From assembly GCA_905181685.1 (NCBI GenBank), contig CAJIYK010000001.1, positions 1-64,000 of the forward strand: a stretch of 64,000 bases of DNA, in the 5' to 3' direction. Every line of letters starts with the position of its first letter. The stretch's first letter is position 1. The position numbers were made by a program, and so were the translations under genes. Shown here piece after piece: positions 44,906 through 47,316 of this stretch. Origin of the DNA: Methylophilales bacterium BACL14 MAG-120910-bin43. GTDB lineage: Bacteria > Pseudomonadota > Gammaproteobacteria > Burkholderiales > Methylophilaceae. The notes under the pieces were generated by a model. The model was not told where the DNA came from, ran no database searches, and saw nothing but the letters and a program-made list of their open reading frames with translations.

Positions 44906-45423
44906 CTATGCTTTATCTTCTGACGGAGCACTTTCATCTACTTTTGCTTCGGTTTCGACTTTATCTTCTGACGGAGCACTTTCATCTACTTTTGCTTCGG
45001 TTTCGACTTTATCTTCTTGTGGAAGGTCTACTTCAGGGATAGCTTCAAACTCATTATCACTCTCGCGAGCCTTTAGCGTTCGCTAATTCTTGCAGATTTA
45101 CCTGAACGATCTCTGAGATAAAATAATTTTGCCCTTCTTACATCACCTCTTCTAACAACTTTAATATTATCAATCAAAGGTGAGTGAAGCTGAAAGGTTC
45201 TTTCAATCCCTTCACCAGAAGAAATCTTTCTAACAATAAATGATGAATTTAGACCTCTGTTTCTTCGTGCGATTACAACACCTTCAAATATCTGTATACG
45301 TTTTCGATTTCCTTCAACCACCTTAACACCAACAGCTACTGTATCTCCTACATCAAATTTTGGGATTGATTTTCCAAGTTTGGCAATCTCTTCATTTTCA
45401 AGTGTTTTAATTATATCTACCAT
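44906..45423 (-). CDS. rplS: 50S ribosomal protein L19 with repetitive acidic tail (frame broken once)
   Basis: L19 lies at the subunit interface. The normal domain begins [20 protein letters not shown] and includes [14 protein letters not shown] and [20 protein letters not shown]. The frame first stops at 45073, just after ARISER. One base of correction there continues into an open frame, [20 protein letters not shown], and then two perfect 16-residue repeats with core [16 protein letters not shown], ending EDKA at 44906. The terminator right after this end supports the longer reading. The tail of about 55 residues is rich in Glu, Asp, Lys and Ala and probably disordered. Normal L19 lacks it. 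It is the last gene of the operon. Confidence 0.85.
44912..45017 (-). repeat. 48-bp tandem repeat in the L19 tail
   Basis: Two perfect 48-bp copies occupy 44912-44959 and 44960-45007, followed by the beginning of a third. Since 48 is divisible by three, gain or loss of a unit would change tail length without breaking the frame. Confidence 0.92.
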
Positions 45424-45445: not shown

Positions 45446-46215
45446 TTAGCCTTGTTCCTGCTCTTGTTCGATTTCTTTAAGCAGCCGAGACTCTTCTTTT
45501 GTAAGTGATTTATTAATTAATAAATCGGGTCTTTTTAACTTCGTTTCTTTAAGTGACTCTTTTAATCTCCAAATTCTAATTTTTTCATGATCACCAGACA
45601 ATAAAATATCTGGTACCTTCAATCCTCTTACTGACTCGGGCCTTGTAAAGCTGGGGTGGTCAAGCAATCCATTTACAAAGGAGTCTTGATTTACTGACTC
45701 TATATCATTTAATACCCCAGGGATTTGCCTAATCAATGCGTCCATTAATAACATTGCCGGAAATTCTCCCCCACTTGTAACAAAATCTCCAATCGAAATC
45801 TCTTCATCAATCCATTTATTTAGACGCTCATCTACGCCTTCATATCTGCTAGCTATCAATATTAATCCTTCTTCATTCGATAGCTCTTTTACTTTTTCAT
45901 GTTTTAATCTAGAGCCTTTAGGTGTTAAATGGATTACCTTACGCTTTTTATACCTAAACTTTTTTCTTTAGCTCTTGCTGATTCAATTGATTTAATCAAA
46001 GGGTCAGCCATCATTACCATTCCTGGACCACCACCATAAGCTCTATCATCTACGGTCTTATGGGTATCTGTTGCAAAATTTCTAGGATTTATAAAATTAA
46101 TATCAACAAATCTTTCTTTAAATCCCCTACCAACAACACCAAAATTAGTTAATGCCCCGAACATTTCAGGCATTAGCGTTACTAAATCTATTAAAAATAT
46201 TTTAGAAGCTTTCAT
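45446..46215 (-). CDS. trmD: tRNA (guanine37-N1)-methyltransferase TrmD (frame broken)
   Basis: TrmD makes m1G37 in tRNAs to prevent frameshifting. It has the SPOUT trefoil knot. The N-terminal piece reads FLIDLVTLMPEMFGAL and DDRAYGGGPGMVMMADPL. The C-terminal piece has ASRYEGVDERLNKWI, EISIGDFVTSGGEFPAML and the conserved PSFTRPESV. The frame changes near 45940, right where PKGSRLKHEK would be. I chose the ATG at 46215, inside the end of rimM. Length about 256 residues, normal. The gene ends EIEQEQEQG, 22 bases before rplS. Confidence 0.94.
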
Positions 46216-46704
46216 CCCAATCAACAATTATCTGTTGTTGCTTCAATTCTATTTTTTTAACAGTCATTTTTGTGTAGGGAATTAATCTTTTTTTTTCTCC
46301 CTCAACAACAAGAACATCATTTGCGCCTGTTTCTATAAACCCTGTTAATTTTCCAAATAATAATCCATCGTATTATGGACTTCGCATCCAATTAAATCAT
46401 CCCAATAAAATTTATTATCAGTTAACTTTGGTAGAGAATTTTTTAAAACGCCTACCCAATAATTCCTATATCCGTCTGCTACTGTTCTATCATTAATACC
46501 TTCAAACTTTACCATCATTCTATTTTGACTAACTTTGATGCTTTCAACAGATAAACTAGACCAATTTTTCTCATCAGATGATATAAACCATTGTTTATAA
46601 TTTTCTAATGTTTCAACTAATTCTGTGAAGACTTTTACTTTAATCCAACCTTTTATTCCAAAGGATCCAACCAGCTGCCCCATTACTAAATAATCTTCTT
46701 TCAT
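46202..46704 (-). CDS. rimM: Ribosome maturation factor RimM (frame broken once)
   Basis: RimM helps assemble the head of the 30S subunit. The first piece reads MGQLVGSFGIKGWIKVKVFT and DNKFYWDDLIGCEVHNT, the RimM N-terminal and PRC-barrel signatures. After a shift near 46365 the other frame continues GKLTGFIETGANDVLVVEGE and IPYTKMTV, ending DWDESF at 46202. Length about 167 residues. It lies between rpsP and trmD in the standard order, overlapping trmD by 14 bases. Confidence 0.92.
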
Positions 46705-46726
46705 AAAAAAGATTACATCAATTTAA

Positions 46727-47316
46727 TTATTTATCATCAGCCTCTTTTGGAGCCTCTTCCTTAGGAGCTTCTTCTTTTGGAGCTGCGGCTTCTTCTTTTG
46801 GAGCCTCTTCCTTAGGAGCTTCTTCTTTTGGAGCTGCGGCTTCTTCTTTTGGAGCCTCTTCCTTAGGAGCTTCTTCTTTTGGAGCTGCGGCTTCTTCTTT
46901 TGGAGCCTCTTCCTTGGAGCTTCTTCTTTTGGAGCTGCGGCTTCTTCTTTTGGAGCCTCTTCCTCAGCTGATACTGCCTCTTCTACTTTAGCTGCTTTGT
47001 CAGCGGCTTTCTTATTTTTTCTTGCCAATGCTTTAGCTTCATCTTTCTTTTTCATGGCAACAAGTCCATCAGGACCTTTTGCATTTAACTTTACTATTCT
47101 ATTAACAGTCTCAGAAAGTTGCGCGCCGTTTGATTGCCAATATTCAATTCTTTCAGACTCTAACCTAAGCGTTTCAGACCCTTCTCTAGCACTAGGATTA
47201 TAAAAACCTACCCGCTCAATAAATCTTCCATCTCTTTTTTTGCTTGACTCAGCAACTACAACATTAAAGTAAGGTCTTTTTTTGGATCCACCTCTTGAAA
47301 GTCTAATAACTACCAT
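46727..47316 (-). CDS. rpsP: 30S ribosomal protein S16 with long tandem-repeat tail (frame broken once)
   Basis: S16 is an assembly protein of the 30S body. The first 80 or so residues are ordinary S16 ([36 protein letters not shown]). A lysine/alanine helix ([20 protein letters not shown]) follows, then a long tail. With one base restored near 46914, the tail is four near-identical 17-residue units with core [17 protein letters not shown], ending EADDK at 46727. Without it, the same DNA encodes basic units ([17 protein letters not shown]) to 46723. Both frames are open through all units. The acidic reading matches the sequence before the shift, so I prefer it. Confidence 0.88.
46750..46952 (-). 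repeat. 51-bp tandem repeat, four copies, in the S16 tail
   Basis: Copies run 46750-46800, 46801-46851, 46852-46902 and 46903-46952. They are identical except that the last has 50 bases, lacking one A at CCTT(A)GGAG, which causes the frameshift. A degenerate partial unit follows to about 46965. Confidence 0.95.

Follow-up and report, generated by a model that had tools for sequence, protein, structure and literature searches.

Our analysis makes it very probable that this organism, a marine methylotroph, produces a single S16 form (bS16) with one acidic, disordered C-terminal tail, that the basic tail read from the assembled sequence is an erroneous reading that results from one deleted base in an assembly rich in indels, and that the repeat array encoding the tail grows and shrinks in frame, by replication slippage or unequal recombination. 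The window, by which we mean the whole 64,000-nucleotide stretch of DNA that was analyzed, was compared with genomes of the same genus, of other Methylophilaceae, and of other Pseudomonadota.

Results

The rpsP gene and its repeat array

The features of the window to which the text refers are as follows.

46723..47316 (-): rpsP (bS16) open reading frame as assembled, 197 aa, with the off-frame basic reading at its end
46993..47091 (-): Lys-rich linker, residues 76-108, after the S16 fold; net charge +7 in the close relatives L002, L003, and L022
46743..46964 (-): 51-bp tandem array at the 3' end of rpsP (Tandem Repeats Finder: period 51, 4.4 copies)
46915..46916 (-): site of the single lost base at which the acidic frame gives way to the basic frame, seen in one copy against three others and as a one-base gap against genome G012 at 46916
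46727..46729 (-): stop of the acidic frame, TAA, with the protein ending ...EADDK
46723..46725 (-): stop of the off-frame basic reading, TAA
46205..46704 (-): rimM, one-base frame change near 46370
45446..46227 (-): trmD, one-base frame change near 45945
44909..45423 (-): rplS (bL19), one-base frame change near 45077
44911-45017 (-): 48-bp array in the acidic tail of rplS, 2.2 copies (Tandem Repeats Finder)

The protein is identified as bS16 by the PF00886 profile, which is matched over its full length (positions 1-62 of 62) at 47113-47295 with a score of 87 bits (cut-off 27). Same-strand frames that read as rimM, trmD, and rplS, each of them frame-changed, accompany the gene, and from the gene order and gene names we take rpsP-rimM-trmD-rplS to be one operon. 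Past the fold the protein carries a C-terminal extension of at least 30 residues. An earlier note on this DNA had described S16 as having a tail of about four copies of a 17-residue repeat, and this is borne out by the 51-bp array, whose 99% matches and score of 437 make it the top-scoring array of the window (Tandem Repeats Finder) and place it far beyond chance. The array is composed of the words EEAPK (15 bp) and EEAAAPK (21 bp), both of which are also found in relatives.

On the coding (-) strand one copy of the array reads GCTCC-AAGG, whereas the three other copies read GCTCCTAAGG; the statement of the same note that the repeats are alike save for one lost base is therefore correct, with the base absent between 46915 and 46916 in one copy of four. 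Upstream of the lost base the open reading frame encodes the 17-residue acidic unit, and downstream of it the acidic reading persists in another frame. The two frames are both open, as had been claimed, to TAA stops lying four bases apart.

bS16 tails in the genus

S16 was found in 26 of the 31 genomes of the genus. Leaving out 5 duplicates and 8 loci that were cut, masked, or frame-changed reduced the 31 loci to 18 distinct sequences (one of them, L005, without a start), which range from 123 to 256 aa in total length. The net charge of the tail is negative in all 18, each of which has a complete 3' end, with values of -3 to -34, and in the 17 sequences whose start is intact the linker carries +5 to +7. 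Relatives in the genus that reach the tail do so in the acidic frame, with the exception of G027; L008 (genome G024) departs from that frame only past a masked stretch of N, and the sequence of L016 stops short of the tail. The earlier note had pointed to related genomes as the place to compare the tail, and there a tailed bS16 is indeed common, with 18 of 18 counted tails acidic. The S16 of G002 is identical to that of strain HTCC2181 (L006, L027), an OM43 strain.

Tandem arrays are present in 24 of the 26 distinct rpsP sequences of the genus, a count that includes cut, masked, and frame-changed ones. Their period is a multiple of three in 23 of 24 cases, the exception being L015, a masked sequence from which the Ns were removed, and tail length differs among relatives, both of which agree with the earlier suggestion of a multiples-of-three repeat able to vary in length. 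Close relatives with just 6-11 base differences in their first 75 codons have very different tails nonetheless: the array is 57 bp x 6.5 in L002 and 51 bp x 3.7 in L022, and L003 has a short mixed tail. The tail repeat of G012 was sought elsewhere in five genomes and matched in four, each time in rpsP only (in G005 weakly, E=0.27); there was no match in G002, the tail of which has a different repeat text. That the periods are multiples of three probably reflects the loss of off-frame products and the retention of a Glu/Ala/Pro(/Lys) composition.

Neighboring copies within 20 arrays of the genus differ 18, 19, and 32 times at codon positions 1, 2, and 3, respectively (P=0.017; copies not independent), and the corresponding figures for 29 arrays from other genera are 64, 95, and 185 (P=5e-15; copies again not independent). 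Such an excess at the third position favors selection on the protein text, if weakly in the genus. In an AlphaFold model of the homologue L003 a helix spans residues 82-116 and no structure follows it; the model, made from 3 sequences, is poor, with a mean pLDDT of 55.7 and values of ~65-72 for the ten-residue blocks as far as residue 110. The tail had been called repetitive, disordered, and acidic, and of this the repetitive and acidic parts hold, with disorder only probable.

The second, basic frame

Enumeration of the codon pairs available to E/A/P/K text (or E/A/P/K/D/Q text) gives 0 stops in the +1 frame and 8 stop-giving pairs in the +2 frame. No stop arises in +1 because a stop starts with T, but the second codon base of Glu, Ala, Pro, and Lys is A or C. 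Without weighting for codon usage, the +1 residues from such pairs are R, L, P, K, Q, N, S, and H, and the +1 frame of Glu/Ala/Pro/Lys text is mostly Arg/Leu/Pro/Lys/Gln. When the intact acidic tails of relatives are read in +1, 16 of 18 contain 0 or 1 stops (3 and 4 in the remaining two) and all 18 acquire a positive charge, as in L022, where the +1 reading carries +48 and the real tail -18. Openness and charge reversal therefore accompany any tail of this kind. A biological meaning of the basic second frame is not supported, its openness being forced by composition, and the charge-flipping second frame of the earlier note has to be given up, the off-frame tail reading being confined to two indel-rich assemblies, those of the window and of G027.

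One-base indels in the assembly

The indel load was measured for the window and for G027 against G012, G022, and G019. G012, a genome in one contig, has a completeness of 96% and shares 95.0% identity with the window. In tblastn searches 64 of the 67 open reading frames of at least 100 aa given from G012 matched the window, as did 65 of the 68 given from G022. Frame changes in the window affect 23 of the 64 G012 matches (31 changes in all, 0.52 per kb) and 23 of the 65 G022 matches, and the control pair G012/G022 has 0 of 65 in both directions. rpsP itself is absent from the 23 frame-changed G012 matches. Alignment of the window with G012 contains 114 gaps that are not a multiple of three, 105 of them single-base gaps that divide into 53 insertions and 52 deletions. 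More than half of these one-base gaps (56/105) lie outside homopolymers, as does the lost rpsP base, and 94 of the 105 are in runs no longer than three bases; the gaps are therefore not chiefly a homopolymer effect. Coding gaps that are not a multiple of three occur at 1.36 per kb between the window and G012, compared with 0.17-0.19 per kb between G012 and G022, which is the more diverged pair (~88.5%) despite its lower rate, and whose raw alignment still has 8 and 11 coding gaps though no frame change was detected by tblastn.

The genes broken by one-base frame changes next to rpsP, namely rimM, trmD, and rplS, are important core translation genes, and the density of breaks, these genes included, points to assembly errors. 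The window's own assembly (G000) has a completeness score of 50.9% for 795 kb. Indel errors in long-read assemblies are described as breaking genes and depressing the completeness score (PMC8103633). From these sequence comparisons the base missing at 46915/46916 is most likely an assembly error. One-base indels are found across the window (1-64000), and its gene calls and short open reading frames need to be treated with care.

In G027 (L026) S16 runs off-frame through the tail in a basic/Gln reading, and this genome is scored 47% complete. Frame changes were found in 14 of 36 matched G019 open reading frames and in 21 of 47 matched G012 open reading frames, against 0 of 33 in the control comparison of G012 with G019. 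Comparing the raw gaps of G027 and G019 is uninformative, the values for G012 and G019 being high as well (12.2 and 8.3 per kb, with 72% identity). Gene models of G027 are likely to be unreliable given this heavy indel load.

Two alternative readings take the break in rpsP to be real. Contingency loci are phase-variable genes with an intragenic repeat tract of changing length, and rpsP shares with them an in-gene repeat tract able to change length. A genuine phase-variable switch, in which single-base slips would flip the tail between acidic and basic, could draw on the two readings being open to close stops and on G027 as a second genome with an off-frame basic/Gln tail, but it is hardly credible: the openness is explained by composition, G027 carries the same indel signature as the window, and no other locus of the genus is off-frame through the tail, L008 being so only past its masked N run. 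In addition, the slip site is neither a homopolymer nor a short unit, and the nearby rimM, trmD, and rplS carry the same type of break. Unlike contingency loci, rpsP has periods that are multiples of three (23 of 24) and switches frame only in two indel-rich assemblies, and it was not classed as a phase-variable locus with frame-switching repeats in real genomes. A frameshift that is real and fixed in the lineage, its basic tail tolerated since the tail does no work, is very unlikely. It would fit with a break that leaves the S16 fold and linker intact and with a tail of variable length that is perhaps dispensable; against it, the base is gone from just one of four otherwise matching copies, the assembly has ~1.4 coding indels per kb relative to G012, and the counted tails of the genus are acidic without exception. 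Programmed ribosomal frameshifting was also considered and rejected: CTCC-AAGG is no slippery heptamer by eye, the off-frame reading is reached only via the lost base, and relatives other than G027 are without the shift.

bS16 tails outside the genus

In other genera of the Methylophilaceae 34 of 47 counted loci extend at least 40 residues past position 85 and the other 13 by fewer than 10, the sample being non-random (the 30 best-scoring loci plus 20 chosen for long frames). Arrays were detected there in 29 of 35 rpsP sequences of at least 100 codons; in contrast to the window's genus, where matches are 94-100% in 21 of 24 arrays, the repeats of these genera are diverged (64-94% in the 29 arrays) or not found. 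Among 22 counted loci from other Pseudomonadota, drawn from the best 30 of 191 genomes with a match, 14 have at least 40 residues past position 85, 7 have 10-39, and 1 has fewer. Many of the bS16 sequences from other Methylophilaceae and Pseudomonadota (L046-L125) resemble that of the window in having an acidic A/E/P end preceded by a stretch rich in Lys and Ala. Among the 60 bS16 chains listed of 67 matched in the PDB, 33 are of 76-91 aa, and at least six chains of 147-192 aa are found among the matches listed.

Tailed bS16 also occurs in Methylophilaceae with genomes of 2.5-3 Mb. In C. acnes a 65-residue bS16 extension is reported to bind uS4, with its end not resolved (PMC10085706), and in M. 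smegmatis part of the extension is reported to reach uS4 (PMC6133939). The tail had been regarded earlier as an oddity of a streamlined genome, a view that the larger Methylophilaceae genomes and these extended actinobacterial proteins do not support. What the window's bS16 shares with the actinobacterial ones is tens of residues past the S16 fold that are partly disordered; what sets it apart is a distal Ala/Glu/Pro/Lys repeat from near-perfect DNA arrays, and any contact with uS4 is putative. No title concerning repeat-built bS16 or bL19 tails was found among the matches listed in the open-access literature, which is weak evidence of absence. PMC3460923, considered as a possible report of an rpsP repeat, concerns an intergenic SNP instead.

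The acidic tail of bL19

The product of rplS was also identified as bL19 by PF01245. L19 was found in 27 of the 31 genomes of the genus; three loci cut at a contig end, two masked ones, and the frame-changed locus of the window were set aside, leaving 21, two of which share one tail. A tandem array is present in 19 of these 21 (weak in L143, with 64% matches) and in neither L133 nor L144, and the tail is net negative in all 21. In 20 loci from other genera bL19 ends are shorter, with ~33 residues past the last core motif in five and 12-21 in fifteen.

In G012 (472 kb) the last 30 residues are at least 70% A/E/P/K/D/Q in 3 of 482 open reading frames. The acidic tails among them are those of bS16 and bL19; the third end is net-neutral and fold-like and belongs, by its sequence, to what we take to be bL12. 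The length of bS16 shows no correlation with that of the bL19 tail (Spearman 0.04, 14 genomes), an argument against matched lengths. Two further arrays were observed in G012: one of 27 bp x 5.3 at L158:19823-19964, open in 2 of 6 frames, one of which gives KPAEPVKEV repeats, and one of 66 bp x 2.6 at L171:13795-13967, open in one frame with HSDPKFKEKLNKQRAANQLKQY-like repeats. With other coding arrays present in a 400-kb sample of G012, array formation is not limited to this operon.

Discussion

The single acidic tail that we favor for S16 leaves two views of what the tail does. By analogy with the actinobacterial ribosomes, the Lys-rich linker would lead off the S16 fold, probably along the 30S body toward uS4, and the acidic part would be loose in solvent, its length being of little consequence and perhaps nearly neutral. 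A definite ribosomal job, with 16S rRNA or uS4 bound by the linker and the acidic part acting as a shield for the subunit surface, the mRNA entry, or assembly intermediates, is a serious candidate, if somewhat short of an even prospect. The bipartite layout, with a linker of +5 to +7 in 17 sequences and a negative tail in 18 of 18, argues for it, as does the reach of the bS16 extension to uS4 described for C. acnes and M. smegmatis (PMC10085706, PMC6133939); the variable length of the acidic part argues against it, as does the end of the C. acnes protein, which was not resolved (PMC10085706). The tail may instead be purely neutral low-complexity text, kept since slippage in multiples of three is harmless, a possibility that we hold only tentatively. 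The wide range of total length (123-256 aa), its lack of relation to the bL19 tail, and the tail missing from part of the family (13 of 47 counted loci outside the genus, in a non-random sample) are consistent with neutrality, but clades with different DNA units retain a negative charge and an A/E/P composition, third-position differences make up more than one third of all differences (with a strong excess in other genera), and only bS16 and bL19 among the 482 G012 open reading frames have such a tail by the last-30-residue criterion.

For the annotation of such genes the analysis carries a caution: when the assembly of a Glu/Ala/Pro/Lys tail is wrong by one base, the frame stays open as a long basic reading instead of being truncated, and the error can therefore pass for biology. 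The real part of the finding is modest, with extended bS16 C-termini already known in Actinobacteria. It is a puzzle that in G012 the only acidic low-complexity C-termini among 482 open reading frames belong to two ribosomal proteins encoded in the same operon; the tails of both bS16 and bL19 change length and repeat unit freely throughout the genus. That the two proteins, bS16 belonging to the small subunit and bL19 to the large one, have independently evolved hypervariable, disordered, functional acidic tails, varying in length within populations and acting as a tunable electrostatic brush on the ribosome surface, is unlikely. Were it true, the ribosome surface of a streamlined OM43-type cell would be a fast-tuned electrostatic brush.
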